NCBI GenBank assembly: GCA_947034885.2
Contig: OZ019759.1
Location: forward strand, 17,176,501 to 17,240,500
Direction of reading: 5' to 3'
Length of the DNA: 64,000 nt
Source: Thuidium tamariscinum
Lineage: Eukaryota > Streptophyta > Bryopsida > Hypnales > Thuidiaceae
Position 1 is the first letter of the stretch. Each line of letters starts with the position of its first letter. Below, piece after piece: positions 27,976-63,942 of the stretch. The notes under the pieces are model-generated. The model was not told the origin of the DNA and searched no databases. It saw only the letters and a list, made by a program, of their open reading frames with translations. A program made the position numbers and the translations under genes.

Positions 27976-28007
27976 AAAATTCAATGACATTCCAATTTCT
28001 CCAATTG

Positions 28008-36956: not shown

Positions 36957-38678
36957 AGGACAAATACGTTCACAAGTGCAACCGTACTATACTGCATCTT
37001 CGTATAATGTACGCACTCGTATATTATTTTGATCTTCGTATGGGAGTGAGGTCCTGAGTACTTCGTATTGTGGATTCTTATACGGTATGTACTAGTAAGC
37101 CAAAGGTAGACGACCAACCATCATAAGGACAACCATACTAGATCATCTTCTACAGTAACCAAAAAGAGCTTTCAATTCCTAGGTATTGATCTCCAAATAC
37201 ATGTCGGCAATTGACAATGCATTTGAAAGTTATATGTAGTTGTGTTCTATGTGCAATATGCCGTGATGAAATCCAGCTAGATGCTCATGGTCTGTAACAC
37301 TGCTCAATAAGTAGCTAATGGTTATGCATTCATCAAGGGATATGAATCCACTGTTCAACATAAGCTTGGATACAAGAAACTACTGAAGCATTGCATTGCC
37401 GTCCTCATATCCTACTCGTTCCTATTGTTTGTTGACATGCAGAAACTCCAACTACACTACCGAAACCTCAAGATTATGAAACCCGAAGCAATAGAAGTTG
37501 AAGAAATCATACCTTGTAATAGTGAATTGACAAGACAGCTTGTGACCGCACGTCCAAGTGCTTGACACGCTGCAATGCACGAGCTCCAAACTCCTCAGCC
37601 TCAGCAAGCATGTTCACGACTTCACATGTGCAAAAGAGAAATTCCTAGCTAGCTTGGGGGCTTGACGCTAGTTCGTTAGGATTCAATATCCGTGCTTCCC
37701 GCCTCAAATTTCTATATGAAATGCGAATCTTGCACGTTTGAAATTGTTGACTGCCCTCCTCAAGTGAAGACTGCAATGACCAAGGGGAGGATCTCACCGG
37801 ATGCGGTCTCCTAAAGCAAATGTTGACCGCTTTCTTGGAGTTTGCGCAACACTACTATCGAGGAGCATCTCCGAATGTGAACCCCTCACTATAATTGCTT
37901 ACTGGATTCTTCATGTTCACATTAATCCAATCTATTGCAAAGTCACAGAGTTAAATTTGCGTATTTACAATTATTGTAACTGTTGACTTCACTCTCGAGA
38001 TTAGCGCAACTTGAAGACCCTGCAGAAGATGCACGTGGCCTTCTCTTTTGAATCTTTGGTAGATTCTTTGAATCTGTAGCATTGAAGTAGGGGACTTGCG
38101 GCATTCTGTCTATCAAATATACTCGTCACAATGACAATGAGCACTTCCGTGTCTTTTATCTTCATTGATATTAACCACTATTTATGTTGTGTTTCATTAT
38201 CTTATAGGCTCATCTATACCAATTATATGAAAGTCAAATACATTTTGGTTTGAAGCATATTTCCCATTGTACAGAATGACTACATATTATTCAGTGAATT
38301 TCTTTATCAATACTACTGAATTCACCATCTACATTTTATTATAGAGAAAACAAATGCAATGGATACATGACATTACAATAAATGATTAAATGGAAATTAA
38401 TTTAGAATCTTGGATCCACCATTTAAAGATGTAGATTCTCTACGAAACGAAGATCTCCCTTGCTCAAACTTCATTTCAATAAGAGGATGCCTGAGGATGT
38501 ATGCCCTAGTGTTTATATAAAGAGTTTGAAATTTAGGGTTCCAATCATTGGAAAATTCAACCTAAACAATTACAAGTTACACAGTTACACCTTACAATTT
38601 GACCATTGACCACACTTTCCTTTGAGGTCCATCATTTCTAGGATCATTCGAGGAGGTTCCACGGTTTTAGGGCTCAGG
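36957..38678. other. Spacer with few signals
   Basis: Apart from the candidate exon at 37513-37644 and weak palindrome remnants near 37788 and 37859, I see no gene or clear repeat. Confidence 0.4.
37513..37644 (-). CDS. Candidate upstream exon of the 33.6-36.0 kb gene
   Basis: An open stretch on the minus strand follows an AGCTAG acceptor and ends at AAG|GTATGA. It reads ...VNMLAEAEEFGARALQRVKH... and is phase 0. Joined to the acceptor at 36053 (GTTTTCAG) it enters the 36022 frame, but with a TAG at 36044-36046 before the ATG. It is either an upstream coding exon with one more stop, or 5' untranslated sequence. Confidence 0.35.
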
Positions 38679-38745
38679 GTATAGCATCCACGGTCTTAGG
38701 GTATGGCATCCACGGTCTTAGGATACGGCATCCACGATCTTAGGA
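38679..38745. repeat. 23-bp minisatellite, three copies
   Basis: 'gcatccacggtcttagg' with a variable 'gtat' or 'atac' lead repeats three times, with a decayed copy before it. A related phrase, 'atccacggtcata', occurs at about 54800-54830 near the other end of the proposed large element. Confidence 0.75.
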
Positions 38746-39182
38746 AAGAGGCTCTATGGCCTTAGGGTTTAGGGTTCAAGGTTTAGGGTCTCAGTTTCTT
38801 TCAAATTATTCGTTCTACGAGTTGCGATTGACAATGAAATGGTCATTGGTATAATGGTTTAGAGGGTTAGGGTCTACATTCTCATGTTCTTGAATGGCGT
38901 AAAGGTTGTAGATTGTACTATCTAGGGTTTTATATCAAAGATTTATAAATTAGGATTCCTGGTTTTTGATATGAGATTCAGTGAATTCTAAGTTTTTTAT
39001 TTCGAGGGTCATGAGACTATGATATTTCAAATTAGGGTGCCTAAATATTGAATGATTATGAGGGTTTGGGTTACAATATTGATTTTATTCTTGTTGGAGT
39101 TCAGGTATATTATTCAAGGTAGTAGGGCCTTTTTAGGATTCAAGTTTTTCTAAAATTCATGATTGGATGAGGGTTTTTTTAT
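38746..39182. other. Spacer with TTTAGGG-like text
   Basis: Several 'ttagggttt' and 'tagggtt' phrases occur (38760-38790 and 38900-38950). No gene is seen. Confidence 0.4.
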
Positions 39183-39237
39183 CAACGACGCTAGCGTTCG
39201 AGCGTGGAGCGGTGAGCTCGTGAGTTGCGAGCGGGAA
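39183..39237 (+). repeat. Candidate left terminal inverted repeat of a large MULE-type element
   Basis: The order GCTAGC (39190-39195), CGAGC, GGTGAGC, TGTGAG-like and GCGGGAA recurs in reverse complement at 54855-54900. The match is imperfect, with small gaps. Between the two lie the divergent MULE and ParB-methyltransferase genes. Confidence 0.4.
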
Positions 39238-40126
39238 TCTTGTGAGCGGTGAGCCTCAACAAGACTTAATTGTTGAAGAAGTTGGTGAAAAAAGGAATTG
39301 GGCCAGAATTATTCAAAAATATTTCTGAATTTACTATTTGTATGAAGTTCTGTGACCTATTACCGTGCCCCCCTATAATCGTGGATTGTCATGAAAAATT
39401 ATATTGAGTAGCCATACATTGTTTAGGGTTTAGGTGTAGGGTTCCAAAGTTTTGTGCAAAGTATCAAATCCAAAACTTGATTTACAGTTAAGAACTTTCA
39501 GACTGCTTCAGGTATTATGAACTCATCATGTCACTTTTGGAATAGTCACTAGTATTTGTGGGAGGGTATATAAAACAAATAAGCAAAATTGAGGCATATA
39601 ACTATCCTATACAAATAGGGATTTGGGACATGTGTTGGTACAAGTGTAGATGTAAAGCAAAAAAAAAGGCTAAGGTATAGAAATGAGTTTAAAATGGGAA
39701 AAATGGGGAGATATTTTGTGAAAATGGAAGATAAATGGAAACAATGGAAGAAAATTTAAAAGAAAATACTTAACAAATGCATCTCCCAAATTAAAACCAA
39801 ATAATGATGGAGGAGGGGGAGAAAAGACAAGAGAAAAGGAATTTTGGCTTTTTATAAAATGGACTACAATGGTTTAGGAAATGATTCAGAAAAGAAAATG
39901 TGTTTCATATTCACATGTGCATTATCATGATGAGATATACAATTTGAACTTGTACATATGCATTTGAAAAATTATCCCACATTTCCCTTACTTTTGAGGG
40001 TTAAGGGTCATGTATTCATGTCATGCATATATTTCCTTCTATTCCATGATTTTCATATGATTTCATGCACTGAAAATGTCCAATGATACAATATGGATGA
40101 GGTACATTGAAAATAAGAAGCTATGC
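39238..40126. other. AT-rich flank between the candidate terminal repeat and the MULE gene
   Basis: No gene is seen. It would hold the 3' UTR of the minus-strand transposase. No obvious polyadenylation hexamer stands out. Confidence 0.4.
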
Positions 40127-43100
40127 CTATTTCGAGACTATAATGATCCCTGCACGGACTAGGAGTACCTTCAACTCATTGAAGCTATAACTAGGTGCAT
40201 GAATGAATTTATCATCATGAATATCCATCTTGCAGAAATACCTGTACAAATAGTACAAGTGCTTGCAGTTCACGTATTGTGCTCGCCCTCCAATAGCAGA
40301 TACAACCATGTTCACGAAGTCTGGGCATGTACATGTAGGGAACATATCCATTGTCACTCGATAAACGTTTTTTGTAGATTCCATCCCAGTTTCCAAAACT
40401 ACTATTGCACCAAGTCCTGGAAAAGGGAGAAGAGTCACTTCTAGAATTTGTCTTCTAATATTCCCAGCACTCTCCCATTTGTTTCGTTGCTCTACAGTTG
40501 GGGCATTTGCAAGTCTCCTAATAGTTCGGTTGTTTCTCACTGTTGGATGTACATCCGCATTAGGTGGAGATGGTTGGTCAAGAAGGAAAGGCGTGAAAAT
40601 CTTAGACATGGTAAAGAGCTTACGTGGTGACAATATCGGCTTCTCTTGAAGATGGAAGCCTGCATGCTGCAACAACAAAGTCTCTTCTCGATTGAGGTTT
40701 GTTCCACTCAAAATAGGCCAAACCTCTGGCACCTCTGGCCAATCAATGACCCACTTCCGCTTGGTACCTTTGACGCATCGTTCAATATCATCCCAACAAA
40801 ACCAGAAGTCTACCATGACCTCCCGTTTAGTGCCATACTCTTCTTTTCTACCACGATACATAGGAGCAGGGGTTCCCTTTTTCCCCTTCGAAATCCTACA
40901 AGTACATTTGATGTTGGATGTTCGTTGTTGAGCTGAACATCTAGCATTTGATTTTTGATTGATCCTAGCAATGTGCCACTTTGATGTGTCACAATCACTT
41001 TCAAATGCTACAGTCACAAATTGAAAGGGATTTACCTCACTTTGTGATGCATTGACCTCCAATGGCTCTTGTACTATCTTAGTTGACCTTGTTCGAACAC
41101 GGGGTTGGGAGAAGTTCATTTTGTCTGGTCTATGCGAATCTCCATCATCACCAATAGGCACATCCAACTTTCGCTTAGTGCTTCCAAATATTTCTTCTCC
41201 TTCTAAATGTGGTACTCGAGTTCCCACACCATGAGCTTCTGGCAATGTGTTCAACGCTTCCGCTATTTTCTTAGGGCATCCGCTACGTCTTGTAGCTCTC
41301 AACTTCAATTCCCCCTTGGATGGGCCTGAACCAGATGCGTGTCCTTTGAGATATGCACGGTAGTTCGTCATTTGCATCCAAGCGCGAATACTATCATCAC
41401 AAGTAGCATCCAACAAATTATTTGCGCGTTTTCCAGACATTTGTAGCCACTTGTTATGAATCGTTTCAGATAAATTACAGAAAGGTAGATCTGTCATCTC
41501 TTCCAAACTCAAACCCTGAAAATTTAATGATATTGGTTAGAGACACAATATTTGCCAAAATTTAGATTCAAGATTGCATCCTTCCCTTCCAAATAATCTA
41601 AATGTGGGTGTAGGATAGTTTGCAAGATAAATGAAGAATGAAAATCCTAATGGACAAACGTACAGAATTCTTTACAAGTGATAAATATCCAGAATGGTAT
41701 TATTTTGAGGCAACCAATATGATTCCGTCGGATCCGACGGAACCACATGTGTGGCCTCAGAGCAATCCCATTTCACATACAAGGATACCAAGACAGGATT
41801 TCTAGTTCTCTATACTCACACAACAAATACTAGAATACAAAGACTTAGTCCTTCTATTTGTAAATTTAATTATATACCTTCCACATTTTCTAGCAAATAT
41901 AAGAAAAAACTACAAACAAATCATTATTTTGTGTACCATTGTCATAAAGCCTCCCCATTGTAAATACCGAAAATGCCAAAATGCCAGCCAATGCTCTAAG
42001 TGATGAAGAGACTCTTCGCTTGCAGCTCCAGATGACAACCACCATGACCGGATTGCAAGATATCGTGTCTCTGCTTCATCCATGGTCTTGGATTCTTTGT
42101 ATTGCTTGCACAGCATATTGTGTTGGTGTTGGAATGCTTGCTTGATATGTTTCTGAGTGTGCTTGATAAGAGAAGAAGTCCAATGCAACAAGCATGTCCT
42201 CTCTCGGTTTTCCATGACCTCATTCGGAGAACCACTGCCAAAGACAATACGTACTGCATTTCAATTTGCCATTGCACTGTCTGCCATGAAGCCCTTAAAG
42301 TTTGTGTCAGACACACCATGATTAGTCATGACAGCCTTCAAACTCCTCCAGAATTGTACTTGAACTTCTGTATCTTCAGACTGCATGTCACATACTGCAA
42401 TGGTCATCACTTTCTTGTACTGTGCGTCATACACGTGGCAAGCCATCGTGGTCCAGTCCTTCACGCGCTTCACGTGGTCAAACATCATCCACGCATTGTG
42501 AAGATCTCTTTGGGGTTGCATGCGCTTGACGAGGTCGACTCCACTTCCAGGTCCTTCGGTAAGCATTTTGAATATATACACTTTCTCCTTGCCTTGGCCT
42601 GGGAAAACGCTGTCGTGGATGAATTCAAATTTGGATTCTTTCTTCATAGTCATAATGTTGTCGATAACACCTCCTCGATTGTTTGTGCGGAAAGAAGAGA
42701 TGACATTCCGTATACTAGGACTGCTTAGAACTTGGAAGCGGTCCATAACCTCTTCCATCTCTTCTCCCTTAAGCAACTCCTTCTCTCCGGTTCCGTAGTG
42801 AAATAAATGATTCGTCAAGAAGTCTTTGCTAGCAGACAACGCAATAGCAGAGTTTGTAGCCGTTGGAGTTTTGGCCACTTGTTTTGCAATGAGTTCGCTA
42901 ATTTCTTTGGCGGAGTCTCTATACATGCCTTTAGCTACCGGGTGAGTATGACTTCCAAAGTGAATAGCGGCTCTAGTCATTTCGGGATTATCACTGTAGC
43001 AATAGTATATCCTAGCGTCACACATGCCAATGCAAGTAGGTATATTTTTGCACACTTTGCAAATAAGCCTACAATCTTTAGGAGGACCTTCTCCTACTAC

Positions 43101-44099
43101 AAAAGGGAAAATAGTAGACCCTATCCACTCTGTTTCATTCTTTCTAGAAGCCCTCTTCAAGTACTCACACTCAGTATTCTTACAAACAAGATGACCAGCG
43201 CAGTATGACTTACGAAACTTAAGATTGTCTGTGTTGTGGATGTTTGTTGTCACCAGTTTGCACCAAGGATGTCCGTCATAACGCTTATCCATTCCCTCCA
43301 AATTCTTGGCAGCCGATGAAGAAGATGAGGATTGACAAGGTGGTAACTCAAAAATAGAGTCTCCATTGTATGCAGGTGGTAGAAACGCTACCCGATGATG
43401 TTTCATGATATTCAGGTCTACTGTAGACAATTCACTCCTAGAACGATGAAGAGTAGCAAGTCTATGTAGACAATCCATTATACTGACAGATCTCACAGTA
43501 TTTGCTTGTGGCAAAGGACTAGAAAGCAAAGACTGAGAAATAGAACTACCTTCCATTTTCTTGTTTGAGTGAGGGGTGGACTTTTCACTTGAATCAATTA
43601 TAATCATGGAGGGTTTAGGGGTAAGAGACGAGGGTACGAACTCTCCTTCCGAATCGCTAGATAAATCTACAATAGTATCCAACTTCTCTACCTTCACAAG
43701 AACATCATTTTCATTTGTAGCAAACATTGGGAGAGGACTGCGAGTACTAGGACATGGTATAGTTGCCTTAGCCGCGAAGGGCATGTCCACTGTTGAGTTG
43801 GCCGACTGGCGACTTCCTATTTCAGTTGACATAGGATGCATCGGTAGAGGGAGACCATACACTCTATAATTTCCAGAACCCAAAGACCAACAATGTCCTT
43901 CTTCACATAGTGACTTCATGAGAGGAATAGATTGTAGTAGTTCACCTGCCTCAGACTTTCTCTCTTCCTCAATATAGACAGATGACTCAATGAACTTGAA
44001 CCTCACATGAAGAAAGTGGCTGAAAACAGTAGCATACCCTTTTTCATCAAGTGGGAAGACTAAGGGGACCTCGTGACCATCTACACGTATAGAAGCCAT
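40127..44099 (-). pseudogene. MULE-type transposase with SWIM zinc finger, one in-frame TGA
   Basis: Two exons: 44099-41937 and 41515-40127, joined phase 0 across a 421-bp intron (AATG|GTACAC, TTTTCAG). This predicts about 1,180 residues from the ATG at 44099. The N-terminal half is Ser-rich with Cys motifs (C.NTEC, C.VC.NIPTC). The MULE catalytic region follows: WTTMACHVYDA...IAVCDMQSED and FMADSAMAN. A TGA at 42261-42263 comes right after this, where this family has Trp (ANWNAVR); the frame then continues as NAVRIVFG. The second exon begins LSLEEMTDLP and contains ETIHNKWLQMSGKR, both typical of the family, and ends with a SWIM finger (CTC-x19-CKH). The protein would cut its own element's ends. 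The single G-to-A change is the only lesion seen. The gene is divergent from the ParB-methyltransferase gene at 44871. Confidence 0.85.
41723..41742. repeat. BamHI-core palindrome in the MULE intron
   Basis: TTCCGTCGGATCCGACGGAA is a perfect 20-bp palindrome, flanked by shorter outer arms TGAGGCAACC and TGTGGCCTCA. It is the only copy outside the ParB-methyltransferase introns. Confidence 0.9.
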
Positions 44100-44870
44100 A
44101 TTTCTAGCAATAGACCAATCCAATCCAATACTAAAAAGGGAGACTCTGGTAAGAGTATTTAGAATTCATAAGGAAGAGTTTTGGGAATGAAGGGGTTACA
44201 GCAGTCACCACAAATGATTTATGTGGCAAGAACAACGGAGCTCATTAATTTCACTATGAAGTTCAATGATGGTAGGACCTGCTTTCTCATTGTTAACGTC
44301 CTTTATTGAAGCCGCCGCTTAGTGAAAATTTGAAATGGTATTGTTCTTAATTACTAATTTATGGGACATTCTATTAATGCTTTCAATTTTGAAATGTTGA
44401 AATTTTCATATAGTAATTACATTGAAATTCTAAATATTATCTACTACTATAGTACTTGTATGCTTCTTGTACCTTTTGAGTGTGCCACATTCAGTTCTGA
44501 AATAGTACTTAGATGAACTAATTAAATTCTTTGGATTCTATGACAGCAAATACATGCGTAGTTGATTCATTCAAGATTTGGCGGCACCCAGAAATATCAT
44601 TCTTGGATATCATTGATGTGCGGGAATCTCTGACGGCATGCGAAATGACGGCAACGGAAGGACGTTGGCTAAGACGGCACGTTTATGAGTATTGGGCATA
44701 GTGTTGGACAAAGAAACGTAGTACCGCCGACTGCATAGTTAAGGCAAACTTCTACATTTGAAGACTATTTAGATCCTCCCCTTCAGAAACAATGCTCATT
44801 TCAGATTGTCTTGTTCGTTGTCTCAGAGGTTTTTTTCTTACATAGTTCAGGACCTTGATGCTTTACGCGT
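44100..44870. promoter_or_regulatory. Divergent intergenic region between the MULE and ParB-methyltransferase genes
   Basis: The two start codons lie 772 bp apart and back to back, so this spacer must serve both promoters. It is AT-rich at the MULE side. I see no CGGACG array and no clear TATA box of the kind found at the other transposon genes, which sets this pair apart. Confidence 0.5.
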
Positions 44871-47800
44871 ATGCTCTTAGAGGGCCAGACTTCTATTGTT
44901 GATAACTCACAGCCTGTTAGAAAGAGGAGAAAGCGAAGATTGTTTCTTTTTTCTTCCAATAGAGATCTCCGTAGGGCTAGGATGACACGGGCTAAGAGGG
45001 CTCTCTCTAAGTTGAGTGACTCAGGAGCTGCTGAAACTCGGAAGACTCTACGTTTTGAAGGTGGAGCAAGCGGCGAGTCTGTGATTGCTGTGCACAAGGA
45101 TGTGGAGGCAGGGCATGGCGATTTCAACCCCAATTTGGAGGCTCACGAACCTGCACCTCCAGATGAAGTTGAGAATGTAAGAAACTTGTAGTCTATTCCA
45201 ACTCCTTCACCCTTCACTGCCTTCCATCTATTGGACATTTACTTTATGTAAAGATTAAAATAGGAGCCATGATAGACAAAGGCTCATCTCTCCAGAATTC
45301 TTCATTGGCATTAGAATCGATAACAGCGATATGCTTTTAATTGAAAGAGTAGAGTATACATCTAAACCTTCTACGAAACTAGGATATATAGATCTAAGAT
45401 TACAGTGAGAAAGCTCCATAGGAAATGAGGGTGCACTTCCAAGTTTCTCTAAACTAAAATGAAATACATAAGTAGAAGTTATAGTTTACAGTGCGTTCAT
45501 GTAAGAGGAGACATTATAGACTAATCGTAGACTTCAATTTAGATGTAAGAGGGTTAGACCAAGTACTCATACAGTGAAAGAAATAGGGTACTCAATTTCA
45601 GAGGGAGGGAAACTATAGACGGTACCAAAAAGAATTTTCTGGAAGTCACTCTCTTTTACAATGATTGTCTTCCTACTCATTTCCACATCTACAAGGCCTC
45701 TTGATCATTAATGGAGTAAATTGTAAATAATTGTTTTGACTATGTCATTCTTTAGGTTTAGAAAAGCTTTAGGTGTTCTCAATTTTCTTCTTGAATGAAA
45801 TTTTTGGCATGCATGATGAGTCTTAAACAAAATTCATTTCAAATACTTAAAATTTAATTAGGACAATAATGATAGATTGTTATATTGTTCACGGCTTATT
45901 CTGTAGTCTATCAATGTAAGCTAAACCCTAAATGCAACAAAGACAAATGACTGATTCAAGAACTTGAGGCAGTGAATCAAATGTAATGATTTATGCTTCC
46001 AAAGCACACCGAAATATTTGGGTGGGAAGTAGTGCGCCTGGTTTACCCTTTCTAGCATTACTAGTAAATCTCAAGAATTCTGAATACTGAAGTTCACTCC
46101 GTGATTTCGAATCCTGTATCATCAACACTAAGCGTTAAATGGACAAATGAAAACTGTCCTGGTCCTTGTCATAATTCAGGCTACATTTCTCCCAGAAAAA
46201 GGAATAGTAGTCGGTCTAACCTCGTCCAAAACCATGTATGAGAAGAATGCAGATTGCTATGCGTGTACCTTGAATGACGCGCATGTCCAGGACCTGATTT
46301 ATTGCTCAGCGGGTTCACTTTCCAAAATTCCTTGATCACTTGCAAGGCTGCAACGTCCTGGAATCAGGACTGCTCCGGTGACTGAAACGTGTCTCGAATG
46401 CCGAGTCGTGCCAGCTCCTACAAGCCTACAGAATCCCACTTGTCCCGAAAAGCAAGGATCGGGAGTTCAGAGCGCACCTTCCACCTGCGGATCCTCTGAA
46501 TTCTCTTGTCTCTATTTGGAAATGGAATTCGGATCTTTCACTCACCGTGTCCAACTTTAGGCTGCATTTGCCCCCGCGTCCAGCATTCGCAACGACCTCC
46601 TCACACCTGCTCAGTGCAGATCACCTGCGCTAGAGAGTTTCTCCATCTGTGTGTGCTTGTGCACAGCTCCCGTGGCGAGTGTCATTCCTCAGCAGGTCTT
46701 CCTATACCTCAAGAAGTTTCGTTTCTCTTGCAGAGCCCTTCAACGATGACGCGCGCCACGCGGAGTCGCTCCAAACAAGGGGAGGCGACGGGAGCTGAAG
46801 TGAGGAATCCAAGAAGGCCGCAAACGATCCCCGCTCCTCAGGTAAGCAGCTTAATGGACTCTCTAAGTGAAATGGAATGCAAAGTGTGGATCTTCTTGTT
46901 AGTGGTAGCCCGTCACGGCATCCTGAGTACCAACAGCCCAGGACCCAACGTGTGCAACCTTAGTCCGCACACGAGCTTGGACGTCAGAGCGTGCGCCACC
47001 AGCCTGCGCGCCACCACCCTGTTGCGTGCCACCACCCTGTTGCCTCCAGACTGCGCGACTCCAACGAATTTCACGCTCCCTCGCCACGAATCTCCTTGCG
47101 CCGGTGGTGGCGCGCATCTCCTCGCGCCGGTGCGGATCTCCTCGCGCCGGTGGTGGCGCGGCTGCTCCCCCGCCACAGCGCGCGTTGGTCGTGGCGCGAG
47201 CGCTCCCCGCGGTGGAGGCGCGGATGCTCTCCCGCCACGGCGCGCGCTAGTCGTGGCGCACCCTATCCCCGAGGTCCTCGCGCAGATGCTCCCCCGCCCT
47301 AGCGCGTGCCGGTCGTGGCGCCTTGACAGGATTTTTTTTTCCCAATGTAGTCTCAAATTCTCAATTCTGTGAGTACCCCAACCCTCGGCAGAAATCTCCG
47401 TCGGATCCGACGTGACCTTCAGGGGCGAATCCGAGTACCCCAGAATCTGAACGTTCCAAACATTCTGCTTCAATTTAGTGAATCATGGGGAGTGGGGGGA
47501 GCCGTCTTAGCGCCGCAGATGTTCACAATTTCAGGCATCCAAGCCGCTGAGGCTCGTCCAGGCTGCCTCGAGCCAAGGTCGCTCCGGAAGAAACCTCACT
47601 CCCGGCACTTGGATCCAACGTTGCCGGAGATGCTCCCCACGCCGGAAACCAGAGTCACGGCACGCGGATGCTAGGCCCCGGAGATGGTGCCCAATATTCT
47701 ACAGGTGTTATTTGCGATTGTTTCTCTCAGTTAGGAGGATTTGGGGGTACCCCGACCCTGAACAAGAATCTCCTTCGGATCCGACGGGATTTTCTGTTTA

Positions 47801-50800
47801 CGGTCGTGGTACCCCTCGTTTTCAATATCTACGGAATTGACAATGAAGTCTAGCTTCTCAGAGAAGATAAAAACGAAATTCAAATGCCAAGCTTCATTCA
47901 CAGGTTGAAGAAGAGGTACGCTAAACTTCATGCATATTAATGTGAAATTTTGTTTTGGTATCATCTCAGTACCTGCAGGTGCTGTTTTCTTTAGTTTGAT
48001 CTCGTAGGTACTTCGGAATTGATCTCCAGGTAGTCTACGACTTGTCTTTTCTCCTCGCTGAGCTGAAATGTCTGATATTTTTCGTCGCTGTGCCGGAATT
48101 GGGGGTAGCAGGAGCTACCCCAGGAAACACCGTCGGATCCGACGGTGATTCGTGGGGTAGCTCCTGCTAACCCCCATTTCGGCACAGCAAGAAGGCGCCC
48201 TCGACTTCAAAGAAGGCACCTGATTCAGGATTGAGTTTTAAAGTTCATAAGGATGCTGGCTGGTTCATTCGGACTTAGTTTTCGAGCTCTCCAATCTTCG
48301 TGGAGTGAAACCTTAGCAGGTGTTGTTCATGGAAAATTGAACGGAATTCCATCCATATAGTCAGACTGTACTTCGGGAATTTGGTTTTTGATTTCATTTT
48401 TGAATATCGGGCATCGAAGTCAGAGTACCGCGAGGTACCGGCCAGACTACCGTCGGATCCGACGGTAAGATCTCGAGAGAGTCAGGGTACCCAGAATTTG
48501 GTTTCATCCAAGTGACCGTTGGTTTCGGGGTCATGATATTTTTTTCTCTCTCAGGTACCTCAGCCTTGTACGACCTCATCTGATGATGTGATGAAGAATT
48601 CTGAGAAGGTGAGTCCTCCTGACATTTCACTTTCATTCGTATTTGTTGAAGTATTCTCCATGTCAAAGTTTATATAATTTGATATTGTGTTTTAATTTTT
48701 GTTTCAATTTATTATTATTCATCCCCTTGAATCTTGCACCTTCCCCATGAATCAAAGATATTTTTTAATATTTGGAATGTTTATTACAAGTCCGGATGAT
48801 TATTGATGTGTATAAAGATGGTGATGAATTTTTTCATACAAAATCCTTAATCTATGAAGTCAATAAATTTTCTTGAAGTATGGAAATCTAGGGTACCACG
48901 AGGTGCCACGGGGAGGACCGTCGGATCCGACGGTCCTTTCCATGTTACCTCATGGTACCCTAGATTTTCATTTGTTGAAAGGGTCAAACTATTTTTTCTT
49001 CATAAGCATTCCTAAGGGTTTAGGGACAATTGGTGGAAACGCAATAAAAAAGTAAGAGAAAAGATTTTGTAAAATTAAAATTCTCTAAGTCTTTAACGTC
49101 CTTGAAAGTTTTCATAAAGGATTCTATTGATATTATTTTGATGTCATATTACTATATTCTTGTTGGAATAAAGATAGATAACCTTATGAACATGCTTCTT
49201 TGCTATTTCATTCTTCACAAATGCCTAATTTCATTTGTCATTGAATAGTTGTAAATATTCATTTATATTTTTTTTTTCATTTTTTGCAGGATGGTCAACG
49301 AAGAGGTAAACGTTTGAAGACTTCCTTTACAGAGAAGCAACCCCCCCTAGAGCAATCTTTTCCAGCTCTTGACATTGGAGGACCATCGGAGCCAAAGAAG
49401 TGGCCACAGCCTGGTGTACCACTCTCAAGTGATTCTAGTGACGAAGAACAAACTCTGGTGAGTTTTGCAGATATAATGGATGCTGCTGAGCGAGCTGCCA
49501 ATGATTTTGAGGGAGATAGATTGAGTTGGAACCGTGGCCCCGGTCCTTGGTTTTCTTCAGAGAGCTCAGAAACAGAGTATTCCTCTGCTATAGAACTCTC
49601 CAATGCTAGTTCTAGTCCTCCGTTTGAGGAAGCCTATGAATCAAACCACACTGGTAAATTTTATACTTACAAGGTCATCATCCTCAGTTCTGACTCTGAG
49701 GATGATGATGTTGACATCATAGGGTAGATTTGGTTTCCTTAGGTTCAATCATCCTAGCAATATTTCTTTGTATGGCCCATAAACAAAGCCTTGTAAAGGC
49801 TCATTTTGTCTCAATCTCACCTGAGCATTTTTCAATTGAGAAATATCATTATATTAGTAAAGCAATTAACATTGCAAATTTTGTTACGTGCTTACACGAT
49901 TAGTACATTTTTTTTGTTGACTTTGCTCTCAATCAATAATATCTTTGAACTTGTACTTCCAGATGGATGTCTCACCTGTCAAAGAAACTCAAGCGGAAAC
50001 CATCTATGAGACTCCAAAAACAGATGAGGCAAGACAACCACATATTGTCGGAGGAGAGGAAGACCTTCCAATGGAAATGATTTACGATGAAGAGGAGAAG
50101 AAAATGTTGGAGGACGACTTGAGGCGTATTCAAAAGGGCGATTCAGTGGACATTCTCTCCCAACTTCGCATGAAGCCCGAAGAGCTTTATCGGCTTCGCA
50201 TTCCCCTTTGCAGGCTAGTAGCCATGCCCATGGTAAGGCCTACTCTAGCTTCTGATATTGTCAAGTTGGAGCAAGAATTTGCTGGGGGATATCAGGATGG
50301 AGCGGCTGCTTTCTACGTGTCTACCACGAATGAGGAAGGATACAGCTCAGAGTTCACTGAGGCTGAGATGAGTGAATGGGACCCCATTTGGAGAGAAAAG
50401 AATGAGGTATTTGAGCGGTACCTGGAGTCCACGGTCGAACTCAAGTCCCTGAAGAACTTGAAGTTCTTCATTTGCGATGGGAATCACAGAAGAATTGCCT
50501 GGATGAATCTCATAGATAGGTGTTATACTTTGATCCCAAAGTGGCACTATGTTGTGGATAGCATTCTATTGGATACTAAAGGGAGAACGGAGCTTGTTAT
50601 GCAAGTGATGCATGATATCAACAAGTAAGTTCTCCAATTCAAATGTTTTCAAGATTTCAGTTGTTTACAATTTTATTTTATGTTTCTTTAGTAGAAAATA
50701 GAAGGACTTACTTTGATTTCATTGTCATTGATGACGTACAGATCGGTGGAGGACTCTCATGTCAAGACTAACTTGGTACATACTTTGTACCAAGTGCAAA

Positions 50801-53800
50801 AGTATGGACTTCTACCAATTGAAAGGTTTGCAGATCTTCTAAGGCCCTCAGAGAAGAAGAAGTGTCTTGAAAACAAGGTTTCTCGGAAGTGGTACAACAT
50901 ACCCGTGGAGGTTTTCACGTCCTTCATTTTCAGGGTAAGAATTTATTTCCTATAGAAATTATATATTGTTCAAATTGACAAACGTTTGAACTCTGGGATT
51001 TACTAATTTCCAAAATTGGTTTATTATGCAGCAAGAGATTTCTCAAGCTGCAGATTCTGCAGTGAGAAAGTATAATGATGTTACAGCAGAATGCGATAGG
51101 AAGGCAGAACTGGCTGCCCAGGCTATGCGGGAAGGAGCTAGGGAGAAAACCAAGGTTTTGATGGGGAAGATGGGCAAACTGCTAGCAGTGGCTAACCCTT
51201 ACAATGGACCTGGCTTTCTTGAGGAGGTGAGTAATGTATAAATGTGGTGCATGATTATGTGTTGGTCTTTCAATAAATGGATTTGGAACTAAAAATCTGA
51301 AGATTTCTTATATAGGTGGAGAGGCATTGGAGCACCAATGAAGTGCCCGAGATGACATTGGAGAAACTGCAACTTGTGTCCACGTGTAGTATGACTTCAG
51401 CGCACAAGATCAAGATCTTGAGCTGGTGGAATTCTTCTGTTCTATCTCGTGAAGCACGAAAGTTCCCACCGAAACCTGTTTCCGAGCTTCTCCTTCCTCA
51501 ATTTCTTGCCAAATGCGTTTGGTATGCACGGGTAAGTAATAAATTGGTTGTGTACATTGGTTTGTAGTTTTTCATTATTTGTTCTCAATATGGCATTTTA
51601 GCCTTTATATTCACTTAATGAAATATTGAAGTGTGCATTTTGGTTTGCAATATGTTTTTAGATTGAAGATGCGGCTTTGGAATACTTTGATTCGGTTGTC
51701 AAGCAAGATAACATCATGATCAATTACAAGCTCCCAACACAACCAGAGTCCTTGGTAGAGTACATTGAGAGGTGGAGGGTCATTATATGGGATCATGGCT
51801 TTATGAATTATTTCAAGGGCCAAAATTACTTTAAGAAGGGTGACTCCTTCATGGCGCACGAAGGTTCAGCTGCTGTAGTTCGGAGAGTGCTTTTCCGGTA
51901 TGTACTATTCTATTTTTTTATACCAATTATGGATAATATTTAGTTATGTGTCTTTCATGACTTAGAAATTAAAGTGATTCATTTTTTGTGTTTCTAAATT
52001 ATTAATTTTTTATATGAGGTTCATTTGTTAAGGCTAAATTGACATGCAAGCATGTCTACATTTTGAATCGGATATCACTGAATTCTAGAAGATGAGGACT
52101 TCAGTTATGAATTATAATGTACTGTCTTGAAGAAAGTGTATTCTACTTTTTAAACTTTTATTTGCTTCTATTATTCTCAAAATTGTTGACCTATCCATTA
52201 ATGGAATTTTCAAATATAATGTTATTCTCCTAGTTATATTGGCATGATCAAAAATGTCCCTTTAAAATGTTTATCCTTGTGTTGCAGGTATTTTAAATTT
52301 GAGCTTGAAGGAAAAGGGGCAATCGCACGCTTAGACCTCCCTCCGTTTCTGCCAGCATTCCTTGATCGTGGTTCTTCAGATTGCATGTTTAGTGCACACC
52401 AACTCCGAACTTATACTACGGCGCATCTTACTTCAGGAGGGTGGTACCTTGATTGTACACTCGAGTTCACTCCACCATCAGAGATTGAGCTGAGGAGGTC
52501 TTTGGATGGAAAAGGGGTCGTGGACTGTGACGTCGATGAGTTTGTTGGACTTGATCAGAACGCAAGAAGGAGGGCCATTGCAAGGAGGGATGCTGTTGAC
52601 AGAAAGAAAGCAGCTCAAGTCCAACTTCACCTTGAAAACAAGGAGAAAAAGGAGGCTGAGCGAGCAGCAAAGAAAGCACAGAAAGACCAGGAAGACAAGG
52701 ACAAGGAAGAAAAGGGCAAAGGCAAAGGTAAGAAGAAGGAGGAAGCAGGGGCACAAGGGGTGCCATCTTCTACAGTGGATCAAGGTTCACAGATGGAATT
52801 CAAAGTGGTGAGAAAGGTCACTCTCTCCCAGCTCACCGAAGAAGTCATCACACATGTTACACAAGGTATGGTCCTCACTGAAGATGATGCGGTGAAGAGT
52901 GAGGATTTAATCCTCAACTTCTCCATTCAAGACCTTGCAGACGACATGGAGGAAGACAAACCGACTTTGTACAAGGACGTGGTACAATTTCTAGAGAAGG
53001 TACCAATGTTTATTGTCATTTTTGAACTTCATTGTTTTATTTCAAGTCATTTGATTCTTGTTTTATTTTTTAACTAATTCGGAGTTGTATTACATATTTG
53101 CAGATGTCAAATGGGAAGACTCGCATGTTTGAAGGTGTGCCAAACGTGCGAGTAGGGGTGGATGTCATTTTCATTGATTGCCCTGAGAATTTACCCGTGC
53201 CAGGGCTTTCTTCATCACCAAACGATGTGCCAGAGTGGAACGCAGATGTAGAGGCGGAAGCACTACAATCAGCTTGTAGCTTTGCCATGGAGCATCTACA
53301 AGACCATGGATGCATCATAGTGTTTCACTCATACAGTATGAAGTCCAGGCAAGACATTGCTGGAGTTTGTGAGGCATATGACTTGGTGCACAAGAAGGAG
53401 TGGATGGGGATGAACCGCATGCACCTTACCTCGGCTGCAGAGAAGACCAAGACGGTAATTTCAATTGACTTTTAGTGTCTTTCATCAAAATTGTATATTT
53501 CCCTACATTTTAAGCGTTCTAATGTACATTTGGCCTAAATGTGCAGACACAGAAGTTTGGAGTCACCTTGCTTGTGAAGAAGCTTGGCTCCAAGGGACCA
53601 TCCAAATTTTCCTTCAAGAAAACCAATATTATGGCAAAGGCAGGTGTTGATGTTGCAGAGGATGACATGCTCATGAACTACACCCATCCATATGACATGG
53701 CCATGAATGGGGAGTGGCCTTGGCGGGGTGGGCGTGAAAAAGATCCAAGGTTTTTTACCATCCTCCTCGAAGCTACAAGCATTGAAGGAGATTTGATATT

Positions 53801-54473
53801 GGATTGCACCGCATCTACAGGTCAGTGTTTAATTCAAATCTTTTACACTATAATTGTATTTCACAAATTCAATCAAAGCACTAATACATTTTATTTCATT
53901 CGCAATAGGTGCATGCATTACAGCTTGCCGTGCCACTGGACGCCACATTGTGGCTTTAGAGGGCAACAAAGACATTTATGATGCTATCCTCAAGCCGATG
54001 AAGAAGTCACTCGAGCGTGTAGTAGAAACAGTGCAGTCAACGCCGGTGGTGGAGCCTTCACAGGATTTGGAGGACATGCCTGTGGTGCCTCGCAAGTTTG
54101 TTCGCAAGGGGAAATCTAGTAAGTAAGTTGGCAATATTTAAATTATTTTTTCACATGTTTGATTCTCTTTTGTGTTCCAGAAACCTAATACCATGTCTTA
54201 TTTTTTTGCAGAGGTCGTGGATTGATGCCAACTTTTGTCATCATTCCAAAACAAAGTCTTCTCATCAGCCCAGAGAAGACTTTTGAGCTCCCTATCTATG
54301 CTGAGCAATTGGCAAGTGCCTTTGCGGAGTTTGGTTGTTCCAAACCAAAGCACCGTAAAGATACTTATGCTCTAAATGTCTTGCAGTTTGTAGATGTGTC
54401 TGCATCTGAGGGTAGAGAGTCCTCAGAGTCATCTACAGGTTCAGATTCTGCAACAGAGTCTACAGCGATTTAG
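44871..54473 (+). CDS. ParB-like domain fused to an N4C/N6A-type DNA methyltransferase fold, about 14 exons
   Basis: Exons: 44871-45176, 46734-46841, 48555-48608, 49290-49673, 49963-50624, 50742-50934, 51032-51226, 51316-51531, 51662-51897, 52288-52999, 53104-53454, 53547-53820, 53909-54122 and 54212-54473. All are GT-AG and phase-consistent, about 1,388 residues with no internal stop. The N-terminus is basic (VRKRRKRR). A ParB/Srx-like core reads FFICDGNHRRIAW (about 453-465). A Lys/Glu-rich helix follows (about 875-935). The methyltransferase part has motif IV as DVIFIDCPENL (about 1042) before motif I as DLILDCTASTG then ATGRHIVALEG (about 1222-1245), the beta-class order. DPPY is replaced by DCPE, so catalysis is doubtful or altered. 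The donor at 49674 (GTCATC) is weak: an alternative reading ends one protein at 49727 and starts another at 49963. The first-exon join is also tentative; an ATG at 46746 could start the protein. Confidence 0.75.
47080..47325. repeat. GC-rich tandem repeat, unit about 62 bp
   Basis: 'ctcccccgccacagcgcgcg' plus 'gtcgtggcgc' and a GAGG...GCGGATG tail repeats about 2.6 times from 47165. Before it, 'ctcctcgcgccggtg' repeats three times. The long open frames over this stretch have no coding support because it lies inside a well-supported intron. Confidence 0.75.
47399..47412. repeat. BamHI-core palindrome, copy in intron
   Basis: CGTCGGATCCGACG, flanked on both sides by GAGTACCCC in direct orientation. 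The arms are partly decayed. Confidence 0.8.
47775..47784. repeat. BamHI-core palindrome, decayed copy
   Basis: TCGGATCCGA core with flanking GGGGGTACCCC (about 47750) and GTGGTACCCC (about 47807), again giving nested symmetrical arms. Confidence 0.7.
48089..48185. repeat. 97-bp near-perfect hairpin with BamHI-core palindrome at its centre
   Basis: The outer arms of about 32 bp (48089-48121 and 48154-48185, reading GTGCCGGAATTGGGGG... and its complement) match with only a few changes. At the centre, 48128-48147 is a perfect 20-bp palindrome (CACCGTCGGATCCGACGGTG). This is the best-preserved member of the family. Confidence 0.9.
48449..48466. repeat. BamHI-core palindrome, copy in intron
   Basis: ACCGTCGGATCCGACGGT, a perfect 18-bp palindrome, with weak outer arms around GGTACC. 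Confidence 0.85.
48883..48971. repeat. 89-bp hairpin with 24-bp central palindrome
   Basis: It lies in the next intron (48609-49289). The arms 'gaaatctagggtaccacgag' and their inverted partner ending at about 48971 enclose a perfect 24-bp palindrome at 48914-48937 with the same TCGGATCCGA centre. Confidence 0.9.
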
Positions 54474-54854
54474 ATTCAGAAGATTGATAAATCTCTTGGA
54501 TCAAACTTTTGTGTATTGATTTTTATTATGATTGGATTTGTGTGTTTTATGGCTACTTCTTTGATGTATTTCATTTTCTTGCATAAAAATGTTTATTGCT
54601 TCATTTATATTTATTTAAATAATATTTAATCTTTGTCTTGTAGAAAATCATATAAAGAATAATCAATTAGTTGTCTTATTGGACAAAGGTATTCCCCTAA
54701 ACCCTAAACCCTATACTCTTACCATGAATTTAAATTGTTCTAAAACAATTTCCTAAACAATGAACAAATAAGTGACAGATAATGTATATTTTGGCAACCA
54801 CGGTCATAGGACCATCCACGGTCATAGATCCTTCATCAATTTTTGTGAATTTTT
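54474..54854. other. 3' flank of the ParB-methyltransferase gene
   Basis: AT-rich, with a short CCCTAAACCCTA stretch at about 54698 and two 'ccacggtcatag' phrases at 54798-54830. No further gene is seen. Confidence 0.45.
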
Positions 54855-54900
54855 TTTTCCCGCTCACAGGCTCACAGGCTCGCCTGCTAGCAACCCTGGT
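54855..54900 (-). repeat. Candidate right terminal inverted repeat of a large MULE-type element
   Basis: On the minus strand the order is GCTAGC (54886-54891), GCGAGC, GTGAGC, TGTGAGC and GGGAA, mirroring 39183-39237. The 15.7 kb enclosed contain exactly the MULE and ParB-methyltransferase genes. No target-site duplication was identified by eye. Confidence 0.4.
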
Positions 54901-55411
54901 TTTTTTATGAGAACAATAGAATTAGTCAATTCATATTTATTAATAAGATTATGAGCTTGCTTTTGTGGGATTTTTAATTAAAGGCCTAACTTCAGATTCT
55001 ATACCTACCATTAGTTTTACTTGCCAATAATGAAAATGTGTATTGTTAATATTCAATAGACTTACTATCCTTCCAATTCTTATTTACCGAATAAATAATT
55101 TTGAATTCGAAAAAATAAATGATTGTAAAGTAGTTACCTTTCCAACTTTGTTGAATAGCTACAATTATCATGTTATTTGCTAAAAAACATAAGATTAATA
55201 TTCATTCCTCTCATTCATCATTTATCTGTAGGCCAATATAATTTAAAGCTTCTTTCAAATAAGTAAATAATTTTGTCCATTATCTTATGTCATTGAAAAT
55301 AACAAATCTTTACTTGTTTATATAATTCTTTACAAATAATGTAATTATAGGATTCTTATTCTAAATGCAAACCTAACATCATGAATTTATAAATTGCTAT
55401 GTTGGAAATGT
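54901..55411. other. AT-rich spacer
   Basis: No coding or repeat signal is seen before the satellite array. Confidence 0.4.
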
Positions 55412-56690
55412 GTAAGTTGCAATGTCATAGAGCAATCATGTTCTATGACAAATTTCAACTTTCAAGTTGAAATTGTCTATATTTCATTTGATTCCTCAAA
55501 AAAGGGCACCCAACCATTCTTTGCATCTTTTGCCAAATGCCGTTTAAAATTTGAAATCAACGTGACTAGGAGACAAAAAAAATATGTGTAAGTTGCAATG
55601 TCATAAATCAATCAATTTATATGACAAATTTCAACTTTCAAGTTGAAATTGTCTTTATTTCATTTGATTCCCTAAAAAAGGGCACCTTGCCATTCTTTGC
55701 ACCCATTGCCAAATGCAAGCTATGAATTGAAAATCAACGTGACTAGGAGACAAAAAAAATACGTGTAAGTTGCAATGTCATAGAACAATCAATTTATATG
55801 ACAAATTTCAACTTTCAAGTTGAAATTGTCTTTATTTCATTTGATTCCCTAAAAAAGGGCACCCTGCCATTCTTTGCACCCATTGCCAAATGCAAGCTAT
55901 GAATTGAAAATCAACGTGAGTAGGAGACAAAAAAATACGTGTAAGTTGCAATGTCATAGAACAATCATTTTCTATGACAAATTTCAACTTTCAAGTTGAA
56001 ATTGTCTTTATTTCATTTGATTCCTAAAAAAGGGCACCCTGCCATTTTTTGCACCCTTTGCCAAATGCCATTTAAAATTTGAAATCAATGTGACTAGGAG
56101 ACAAAAAAAATATGTGTAAGTTGAAATGTCATAGAAAAATCATGTTCTATGACAAATTTCAACTTTCAAGTTAAAATTGTGTTTATTTCATTTGATTCCC
56201 TAAAAAAGGGCACCCTACCATTCTCTGCATCCATTTCCAAATGCAAGCTATGAATTGGAAATCAACGTGAATAGGGGCCAAAAAAATATGTGTAAGTTGC
56301 AATGTTATAGAACAATCATGTTCTATGACAAATTTCAACTTTCAAGTTGAAATTGTCTATTTTTTATTTGAATTCTCAAAAAAGGGCACCCTGCCATTTT
56401 TTGCACCCTTTGCCAAATGCCATTTAAAATTCAAAATCAATGTGACTAGGAGACAAAAAGAATATGTGTAAGTTGAAATGTCATAGAACAATCATGTTCT
56501 ATGACAAATTTCAACTTTCAAGTTGAAATTGTCTTTATTTCATTTGATTCCTCAAAAAAGGGAACCCTCCCATTCTTTGCACCTTTTGCCAAATGCCGTT
56601 TAAAATTCGAAATCAATGTGACTAGGAGACAAAAAAAATATGTGTAAGTTGCAATGTCATAGAACAATCAATTTCTATGATAATTTGGGT
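55412..56690 (+). repeat. 176-bp satellite array, seven full units
   Basis: 'gtaagttgcaatgtcatag' starts at 55412, 55588, 55765, 55941, 56116, 56292, 56468 and 56644, so intervals are 175-177 bp. Each unit contains two small inverted repeats, 'tcatagaacaatcatgttctatga' in pieces and CAACTTTCAAGTTG. The core 'catagaac...tgttctatgac' is shared with the array at 28.0-28.8 kb. Confidence 0.9.
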
Positions 56691-60781: not shown

Positions 60782-60838
60782 GATTGAGGTTCGTAGGTAC
60801 TTCAGCATCTAACAACTTTTGTTCTGCTTAATTGCAAG

Positions 60839-63800
60839 GATGTTTTGTACTCTGAAATACCACCGGACATGAGCTCTAAAAGGCTTGCAGCCTTTGTTGA
60901 CAGGTGGGTTCCTACTTATAGATACAAGGGGGCTCATCACCTGGTGGGCGTTTCCCGGTGCCGCAACAAAGTTACTACGTGGGGCATTGAGTGGAAGGTG
61001 GATAGTGATAAGCGAGTGACTATCGTACCTACACTAATGTACATGGACCAGAAGTCAGCATCGTCCGGGCTAGACGTGTTGGAGATACAGGGTCTAAATG
61101 ATTCCACAGCTCTTGTGGTAATTCAAGAGAAAATTGCCAAGTCCAACGATGACTTAACATTCGGTTTAATTTTGGACTATAGGTTGATGAGGAAAGAGTT
61201 GTGCTTAACCGTTTTGCAACATGGGTATTTGTATTCGGCATCTGGCTTTTGTCAGTGGACTCCTGAAGAAATGAAGACGTAGTGGAACATCATGGACCAG
61301 GACCGCCAGGAGGCAAACATGACAAATAGTGCCCTTGTAGTAGCAGCTCCAGCAGCATCACCAGCAAAGAAGGGAACAAAATGGAAAGCACTAGTCGGAG
61401 CACCAGGGGATGATGCCACAAATGATAGTAATGCAAAGGCCAAGATCTTGAAGACTATCACAATTGAAAGATGCGTGGCCTTCACAGATGCAGAAGTAAA
61501 GAAGTTGACCAAAGGGCAGATGTCGGCTATGCAACAACTTTACAAGAGGGTCTTTGGAGTGATGTATAAGTGGGGGAAGAGACCTCTAGTGGATGCAAAC
61601 GGTAAAGCAATTCGTGTGCACTACAAGCACTTGCATAAGGCTCTACCAGGGAAGATTGTGTACATAGGTATTGAGAGGGCTAGGTTGGAGGGGATCCTAA
61701 ACCAAGTCCGAATCAAGGCAGACTACGACTCTGAATTGAGACACATCACAGTCCTTCCCCTGAAACTTGGTCCGTATGGTGGTGATGGTTCCAATGCAAG
61801 GGTTGCTTTCTGGGATTCCGCTCCGAATAAGAGAGATCTAACGAGCACAACGAATTACTACATCATTAGTGGACAACACACAGTCGAAGCGCATAAGAGA
61901 CTCTTGGAGTTAGGCGAGATCCCGGAGTGTGATAGAGTGCAAGCATCCACCTTTGAAATCATTCCTATTTGGGCACCAGTGAGTACTACGACACATAGTA
62001 GTGACAACCTTGTCTACCTCTCTCGATCACTGAACCAGAACATTGCTGGTCAACAACGCGAGCAATGTTTCACCCAGCAACTCCTGAATGCATGAGTGAA
62101 ATGGAGGGATATGGATAGCCCACAACCAGCGTATGGTGGCAGAATTCACTCGCCTGAGTATGCGGTAAGGAGTACACCACTCTTCTTTTGGAATTGATTC
62201 TCACTTTTTCATTAGTTTTGGAGGGGGGCTTGGCATTGGGAGATCTCCCAATAGTTGCTTCTCGTAGGAAAGAGTTTTGTCCTTGGAATTTCAACTAATT
62301 GTGATGTGGCCCTGGCGTAGAGGTTCCATCCTGTAATGAGTGCAATCTTCACAGGAGTTAAGCACAATGACGCGGCAGATTTGAGAATTCCACTTCTCTT
62401 CCTTGAAGACGATGACAATGTCAAACGATGGATAAAGATCGAGGAGAACTACATGAATCAGCGCCTTCCGGACAATGCCGGAGATTATGGAGGTCCAAAA
62501 ACAAAGCAAAAACCACTGTTTCAGAATGACTTCAGGCCTCTATACGGCCTTCGCCCAGAGGATGTGAACTACCTGGCGACTTTGGTGGAGAATAAGGAGG
62601 TGTCAATGAAGAGCTCTAAGGCAAAGGCGTTGGAGAACCACCAAAAGCTCCCTACCCTCGTTCAAGCAGCAGCTCTGGAGAAGCAAGTTCGACTTATGAA
62701 GAACGAGCTAATATGCCAGTATAAATCGCACCTGCTTTCGAGCAAGAGGCCTGAGTATATCCCATACACTGCTGATCAGTGGAATGCATTTGCGGCGGAG
62801 AAGAAAATCAGCCGTCGTCATCTGGAGCTTTGGGTTCACAAGTCGAATGACTTTGAGGAAAAACAGGAGTGGTTTAAGGGGTGAGGGCAAGCTCTGAACA
62901 AGACATGGGACCTCGAGGACTATCCCCGTTTTTTGAGAAACCTCTGGGAAGCACACATGAGTACCGATGAAGGGGTGCAAGTCAACCAGGTCTTGGCATC
63001 AAGTTTTGATGATTCATACATGTGCATGTCCATGGACGAGAGCAACTGGAACATTAGTGGCGTCCTCGCTAACCCAGTTGTGAAGAATTGGCGTGGAGAG
63101 AAGAAAAAACACCTATACATTTGGTTTCTTTTCGAAGCTACGGCGACTGGCTTCGTGGGTGTTACTATACTGGACGTTTTTGTTGGTAACAAAGATACCA
63201 TAATGAATCATGCTCGGTGGCCCTTACTGCATTCTTGGTTCCCATATGGACGATCGTTGATGGAGACTGTTGACCACTTTCGGGCCCATCCCGAAGTTCA
63301 GGACCCCTTAGCTTATCTAGGTGGTCGCAAGAAGTCCCCCTATCGCTATATCGTTCGTCGATCCAAGCTTGACGAGCAGGATTCACAATATGTTCGAAAA
63401 ACTAGGGAAGATGAAATACGGAAGGTTAGTTTACAAAAATGTTGCGCAAACTGATGTTGCCAAATGTTTCATCATGAGAGTACGTTGAAGGTGAGGAAGA
63501 CATTTTACTTAAAGTCATTTGAAGACCATCGGAATATGGGATCGCAGTGGGTGGGCAATTGTATAGTGGGAACGGGAATCGGAAGCGTAAATATGTTACA
63601 TTGGAGGGAGCTGAAGTATGTACTACGGCGTGGTACATTATTCACGGAATTCCGAAGTCGACCTATCACAGTTATATAAAGAAGTACAATGATGGTGTGG
63701 TCTCGGGAATGCACGGGAACAAAGGGATTAAGCGTCCCAGGATTCGAACCGTCCAAGTGACAGGAACGATAAAAGCAATCATAGATGAAACCGCTGATCA

Positions 63801-63942
63801 AATGCCACACCAAATGCGGGGCATTGGAAACGGAAGAATGGACACTTTGAAATTTCTGCTTGCTAGAAATAATTGGAAACGAGTTCAAGCTGATGCCAAT
63901 GAGGTAGCTGAATCACTCGAAATCTGTCTGTTGAGTCTGTGA
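60839..63942 (+). pseudogene. Second ParB-like gene with transposase-like C-terminal region, four in-frame stops
   Basis: Exons 60839-62164, 62321-63424 and 63481-63942 are joined phase 0 across introns of 156 and 56 bp (GTAAGG...GCGTAG; GTTAGT...GAGAG). In-frame stops: TAG 61280, TGA 62093, TGA 62882, TGA 63520. Otherwise the frame is open for about 960 codons. Exon one carries NYYIISGQHTVEAHKRLLEL, a ParB/Srx-like core. The last exon (CTTAWYIIHGIPKSTYHSY ... HGNKGIKRPR ... ADQMPHQMR) resembles, from memory, a helix-turn-helix-like block found next to DDE domains in uncharacterised eukaryotic transposon proteins. The middle exon is unrecognised. The gene may continue past the window. A perfect palindrome (62235-62252) sits in the first intron. 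Confidence 0.6.
62235..62252. repeat. 18-bp palindrome in an intron
   Basis: ATTGGGAGATCTCCCAAT is perfectly self-complementary despite two paired changes from the family consensus. It lies within the 62165-62320 intron. Confidence 0.9.

Follow-up and report, generated by a model that had tools for sequence, protein, structure and literature searches.

A 15.7-kb mobile element with two divergent genes

The 64-kb stretch of DNA analysed here (the window, whose own numbering is used for all coordinates below) comprises positions 17,176,501–17,240,500 of contig C11, in a genome of 363,211,507 bases in 19 contigs. A single transposable element fills window positions 39183–54898 (15,716 bp). It is a member of a ~15.7-kb Mutator-like family that moves two divergent genes together and makes 10-bp target duplications. 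The minus strand carries a transposase gene (exon 1, 41937–44099; intron, 41516–41936; exon 2, 40127–41515) and the plus strand, beyond a spacer at 44100–44870, a second gene whose predicted protein has a ParB-like motif in its N-terminal exon and a methyltransferase-like C-terminal third. The preliminary description of this DNA had proposed a single element moving this pair between ends at 39183 and 54900; the ends were correct to 2 bp, and the proposal is borne out by the shared ends, target duplications and linkage of the two genes in 31 copies that are described in this section.

The two ends follow a common plan, CA, 5 nt and GCTAGC followed by inward GTGAGC-type repeats. The left end (39183–39256, plus strand) consists of CAACGACGCTAGC, which begins CAACGAC-GCTAGC at 39183, and inward subterminal repeats, and the right end (54859–54898, minus strand) of CAGGGTTGCTAGC, which reads CAGGGTT-GCTAGC inward from 54898, and similar repeats (GTGAGC/GCGAGC in both); imperfect inverted repeats with GCTAGC had already been noticed around the gene pair, and they are present at 39183 and 54898. 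A perfect 10-bp target-site duplication, GTTTTTTTAT, flanks the element at 39173–39182 and 54899–54908, and the 11-mer GGTTTTTTTAT is found at just two places in the 64 kb, both at these flanking duplications. As a chance control, random position pairs were drawn: with the place fixed, none of 200,000 agreed at 10 or more bases, and with both places free to shift by 7 bases, 10 of 20,000 did.

Ten further copies whose two ends were both fetched are 15,593–15,759 bp long and share these ends, with 0–1 mismatch to the window in 30 left bases and 0–2 in 25 right bases. Their BLAST matches start at 39183 (eight copies) or 1–2 bases earlier (two) and end at 54898 (six) or 1–5 bases later (four), overruns that chance extension allows. 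Each has its own perfect 10-bp duplication, so that the search for 8–11-bp duplications suggested earlier finds one in 11 of 11 copies, the window's included, and the duplicated sequence differs from copy to copy. The search for empty sites yielded one related site: the copy at C1:38.28 Mb has flanks that, once joined, align unbroken to window positions 53097–53463 (74% over 367 columns across the joint), and since this is the region of the second-gene exon 53104–53454, the copy has inserted into a diverged relative of itself. More widely, the genome has at least 40 left and at least 40 right ends, 40 of each being scored (one of 41 left-end rows was dropped as the second piece of the same place). 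For 21 of these 40 left ends a right end of like orientation lies 15.1–16.3 kb away, nine have one at other distances (two shorter, at 7.0 and 10.9 kb, and seven longer), and ten have no partner among the 40 listed right ends, although one of the ten, at C5:652 kb, has a right end elsewhere in the data.

The two genes are inherited together. The second protein has at least 194 exon matches in the genome, with at least 30 places for the first exon of its closed coding sequence (39 of 2379 candidates scored), and the transposase has at least 37 copies (the window's own is missing from those listed). In 13 of these 37 a listed second gene lies close by and divergent, judging by coordinates; ten of the remaining 24 were fetched, and eight of these contain a divergent second-gene exon (60.6–88.6% identity), while one (L070) has none in the 1.4 kb fetched at the expected place. 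Conversely, nine near-identical copies were chosen from the matches to the second gene, and in eight of them transposase DNA is present where it should be (L085 has none in the 0.7 kb fetched there); the same holds for the most distant group seen, in which the ParB exon is 62% and the transposase 76.6% identical to that of the window. In all, 31 copies (13 by coordinates, eight fetched, eight near-identical, the 62% group and the window) carry both genes, down to ~60% identity in the ParB exon. All 11 copies whose ends were read belong to these 31; both genes lie inside each of them, and the unlinked genes or ends off the inverted repeats that would speak against a single element were not seen.

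Contig C11 (17.5 Mb, 4.8% of the genome) holds 12 of the 30 listed exon places and 13 of the 40 listed left ends (binomial p ~6e-9 and ~3e-8, respectively, for partial lists of copies that may be locally related), and it might be a sex chromosome, or rich in repeats for some other reason. The genome has a LEAFY gene (SAM_LFY, best E 1.6e-27) whose DNA-binding part reads MRDYVHCYALHCLD, with an aspartate that we take to be the residue typical of mosses at that place; the host, a plant by this gene, is probably a moss. Other repeats lie near the ends of the window's element. Related short repeats, CATCCACGGTCTTAGG / CATCCACGGTCATAG, are present outside its left end (38670–38746) and inside its right end (54795–54830), with TTTAGGG-type repeats close to both sites, and tandem arrays of 176-bp units lie at 55408–56680, just beyond the right end, and at 28002–28794.

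The transposase, the second protein and neighbouring genes

Mutator-like element (MULE) transposases have D, D and E residues with CxxH between the second D and the E. By eye, exon 1 of the window's transposase contains the first two acidic residues and CxxH, and exon 2 contains the E (in NLSETIHN) and a SWIM-like zinc finger, an order that is kept in ten aligned copies except for the first D in L089, which is N. The zinc-finger pattern C-x-C...C-x-H is kept in five of six diverged copies (L091 has lost one Cys); the SWIM profile gives E 0.16 with the exon alone and 8.2 with the whole protein, both below cut-off. The open reading frames (ORFs) of the transposase described earlier on this strand are there, but the frame is broken by an in-frame stop at 42261–42263 (minus strand) that is private to the window copy, being absent from all 14 of the other copies with sequence at this site (two more have no coverage there). 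With normal reading, full-length transposase cannot come from this copy, which would need copies elsewhere in the genome to supply it; copies with open transposase exons do exist.

The second gene had been called an intact gene of 14 exons; its exons are present, but the closed coding sequence has ten. These have GT-AG borders and close one frame from 49963 to 54473 on the plus strand: 49963–50624, which carries the ParB-like motif CDGNHR, 50742–50934, 51032–51226, 51316–51531, 51662–51897, 52288–52999, then three methyltransferase-like exons, 53104–53454 (degenerate motif IV, DCPE), 53547–53820 (start of motif I, LDCTAST) and 53909–54122 (remainder of motif I), and 54212–54473 with the stop. 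The initial MDxSP is conserved in eight of eight aligned versions (the seven others are 61–90% identical to the window's), which favours a start of the protein at 49963. Three upstream exons on the same strand, 44871–45176 (basic), 48555–48608 and 49290–49653 (coding-like, with an uncertain donor), are mutually in frame, but there is no in-frame join to the exon at 49963 with the donor at 49654. Conservation is 0.90–0.94 in exon 49290–49653 versus 0.72–0.78 in the preceding intron (five informative copies) and 0.87–0.95 in the stretch after it, and in two of the five this exon is interrupted by a stop or frameshift; the upstream exons may encode a third small protein.

By profile comparison, the C-terminal third of the second protein is a real relative of the N6/N4 DNA methyltransferases. 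PF01555 matches four of four members (best E 4.7e-6; member 1, at 23.2 bits, is below the curated cut-off of 26.7), a profile match in PDB leads to the DpnA structure (E 8e-4; CcrM, E 0.068), and phage DNA methylases are matched with a best E of 9e-4. The motif order, IV first and I last, is that of the DpnA alignment, and motif I is kept (LDC-AST-GA). The catalytic (D/N/S)PP(Y/F/W) is, in contrast, lost in all six sequences compared, which read DCPE, DCPE, NCPK, DCLE, DCQE and DCQK (two are close relatives). Marking by methylation is accordingly unlikely, and the earlier idea of a methyltransferase that marks element DNA finds no footing in these sequences; the second protein probably does not methylate. 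In the CDGNHR motif C171, G173, N174 and R176 are invariant in eight of eight versions, and D and H each vary in one. We take this motif to be reminiscent of ParB, but the ParB identity given to the protein earlier is a motif-level guess from this one motif, the profile searches being negative; a single-sequence AlphaFold2 model of the ParB exon has a predicted local distance difference test score (pLDDT) of 33.8. Searches of viral contigs and prokaryotic genome contigs with short degenerate patterns found no relatives.

To follow selection on the second gene, 23 copies were each compared with the window copy as sole partner. In 17 of them (498–1101 codons) synonymous divergence (dS) is 0.067–0.115 and the ratio of nonsynonymous to synonymous divergence (dN/dS) is 0.16–0.28. 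This shows past purifying selection on the lineage of the second gene, not the function of every copy.

Several other genes lie in the window. A second multi-copy gene group, also a repeat by its 29 matching genome pieces at 70–100%, occupies 60797–63942 (plus strand), and its ORF at 61283–62095 (plus strand) has a weak ParB-like match to phrog_723 (E 0.23) with the motif ISGQHT. The ORFs at 60.8–63.9 kb were considered as paralogues of the ParB/methyltransferase gene and rejected, there being no similarity by blastp or phmmer. An ORF at 15857–16759 (minus strand) matches DUF659 (E 2e-32), as in hAT-type transposases, and one at 29247–30803 (plus strand) is protein-kinase-like (E 4e-6, under Pfam's cut-off).

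A palindrome in the introns of both genes

The 16-bp palindrome CCGTCGGATCCGACGG has 309 sites in the genome, and its reversed control has none. In the window it is present in the transposase intron and in the introns upstream of the ParB exon, as four exact sites and two with one mismatch: perfect palindromes of 20 bp at 41723–41742, 48128–48147 (inside a 102-bp quasi-palindrome, 48087–48188) and 48448–48467 and of 24 bp at 48914–48937, and single-mismatch sites at 47398–47413 and 47772–47787. The palindrome family reported in the introns of both genes is real and tied to the element. Eight further sites, hand-picked from the first listed places on C1 and C2 (one, C2:115835, is ~9 kb from a listed transposase copy), tell the same story, in that seven of the eight are in introns of the element's two genes. 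Four lie between exons of diverged second genes that match 52288–52999 and 53104–53454, two in transposase introns and one in the upstream introns; the eighth, L102, is near no recognisable exon.

Both genes retain the palindrome in their introns, including introns that no longer align. In eight of eight diverged transposase introns (not independent cases, as several of the copies are closely related) the palindrome is where the longest run of identity with the window's intron is found, and in six of the eight, L089 and L091 being the exceptions, this run is longer than in any of 60 shuffles. Two sites, L089:1689 and L097:1818, are nearly or fully perfect 60-bp palindromes that have TCGGATCCGA at the centre and arms that do not resemble the arms found elsewhere.

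Proposed role, alternatives and known systems

We suggest that the second protein may be a self-recognition or anti-silencing factor analogous to the VANC proteins of VANDAL elements but built from different parts, and we put the probability of this at roughly 45%. The protein is predicted to be a sequence-specific DNA-binding factor that combines a ParB-like part with a dead N6/N4 methyltransferase fold. By recognising the 16-bp palindromes that both element genes keep in their introns it would mark the element as self, and this marking would most likely keep the element free of host silencing, or else gather element DNA for transposition. A precedent for such a role exists in that VANC does anti-silencing for VANDAL elements. 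What is observed here is that the pair is mobile and inherited together, that the lineage was constrained in the past, that the catalytic motif is gone and that the sites are conserved. A more specific version, in which a eukaryotic DNA transposon has a parS/ParB-like self-recognition system whose ParB-plus-dead-methyltransferase protein reads the 16-bp intronic palindrome across diverged families, is a good deal more tentative.

Several observations weigh against this proposal. A single-sequence Pfam search with the second protein gives N6_N4_Mtase (PF01555) at just E 0.026, plus two weaker matches at chance level, and the single-sequence PDB search returned no DNA methyltransferase. The ParB_N profile (PF02195) has no match in the genome, whereas 10 of 14 control genomes gave matches; Pfam found ParB_N in none of the eight members (the best match is DUF1015, E 0.02, in two of them), and the Pfam, PHROG and PDB scans supported the methyltransferase part alone, leaving the ParB exon without profile or structure support. 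Six near-identical copies of the second gene (dS <0.017) have a dN/dS of 0.48–1.01, and in the exons compared (five of the ten for 13 of the 23 copies) 7/23 have 1–3 premature stops and 3/23 a frameshifting gap. The 7.0- and 10.9-kb forms are shorter end-to-end derivatives, and the latter (L067) shows just the last exon of the second gene at the expected place. Some palindrome sites are 60–100-bp quasi-palindromes whose arms change yet stay complementary, and template switching at the core could lie behind such arms. The protein that binds the palindromes could equally be the transposase or one of the host's, or a mutational process could be what maintains them. Lastly, the assembled transposase does not match the MULE profile PF10551, which makes the label "Mutator-like" provisional. 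It is not among the 33 PF10551 matches of the genome, and a profile-profile comparison with the PF10551-positive ORFs of the same genome gave a score of 15.9, less than the 23.5 reached by the best of 30 shuffles; the MULE assignment made earlier keeps in its favour the length of the target duplication and the order of D, D, CxxH, E and SWIM-like finger.

Among the alternatives, an appreciable if minor chance belongs to the idea that the palindromes are transposase sites, cruciform DNA or intronic RNA hairpins, and that the second protein does something else. The extended arms that stay complementary as their sequence changes (e.g. in L089 and L097) favour it, but at nine other sites (L086–L088, L099–L101 and L103–L105) the core is fixed and the arms 10–25 bases from the centre are paired at near-chance levels (0.13–0.40), a pattern more in keeping with a protein site than with a long hairpin; moreover, sites for the transposase would be expected at the ends, but the repeat there is GTGAGC-like. 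It is improbable that element DNA is marked by the second protein acting as an adenine or cytosine-N4 methyltransferase. The DNA methyltransferases among its PDB profile matches are DpnA and CcrM, which act on GATC and GANTC, respectively, and GATC stands at the centre of the palindrome, but replacement of the catalytic motif in 6/6 sequences makes the standard chemistry unlikely.

The second gene might instead be passenger cargo of host or bacterial origin, acquired in Pack-MULE style and playing no part in transposition. Captured sequence is common in Mutator-like elements (PMC13317346), and the premature stops in seven of 23 copies agree with this; no host source was found by genome-wide searches with PF02195 and PF01555, a result that says little, as PF01555 missed even the element's own gene. 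A multi-exon gene that stands beside the transposase in 31 copies, and 17 of 23 comparisons under constraint, argue the other way, and we consider this explanation unlikely, though less so than an active enzyme. By far the least probable alternative is that two insertions with no relation to each other became neighbours by chance and that their shared ends are coincidental. The inverted ends are indeed short and imperfect (14 of 22 bases identical, counted by eye), but the recurrence of both ends and a 10-bp target duplication in 11 of 11 copies already refutes it.

Among known systems, a ParB-like motif and 16-bp palindromic sites on the same DNA are a likeness to bacterial ParB-parS, although, unlike ParB, the second protein has no ParB_N profile match and no fold evidence. 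With Mutator and its relatives (MuDR and other MULEs) the element shares a 10-bp target duplication and extra ORFs, and by eye its transposase has a candidate D/D/E with CxxH and a SWIM-like zinc finger; it differs in that PF10551 does not recognise its transposase and in its short, imperfect inverted ends. MULE target duplications are 8–11 bp and MULEs without terminal inverted repeats (non-TIR MULEs) exist, as stated in PMC6446971, the main text of which nowhere names a methyltransferase (0 occurrences). In the literature surveyed, and for that part only, we found no DNA transposon with a ParB or methyltransferase gene. DNA methyltransferase genes are described in retrotransposons from Symbiodinium and Klebsormidium, and Dam-like enzymes in DIRS elements (PMC5890265); like them the moss element is a mobile element with a methyltransferase-type gene, but those enzymes are cytosine or Dam-like ones, and here the element is a DNA transposon and its enzyme lacks the catalytic motif.

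A role is known for few of the accessory proteins that DNA transposons encode. The present genome offers a gene of this kind together with its likely cis sites and tens of natural copies, among them full-length and deleted ones and ones that have or lack an open transposase, so that the way in which a transposon tells its own DNA from that of its host becomes directly testable. The closest parallel is with the VANDAL elements of Arabidopsis, non-TIR Mutator-like elements that likewise have a transposase plus extra genes and element-specific short motifs in introns and other non-coding parts. VANC binds short element-specific motifs and removes silencing (PMC5735166; PMC10398659), and the VANC21 motif lies in introns of VANC21 and VANB21 (PMC5735166). 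It differs in being 9 bp long and in one-orientation arrays, where the moss element has a 16-bp palindrome, and the likeness is one of arrangement. If the proposal is true, the moss element would represent a second, independent (convergent) invention of VANC's function, from bacterial-type parts.

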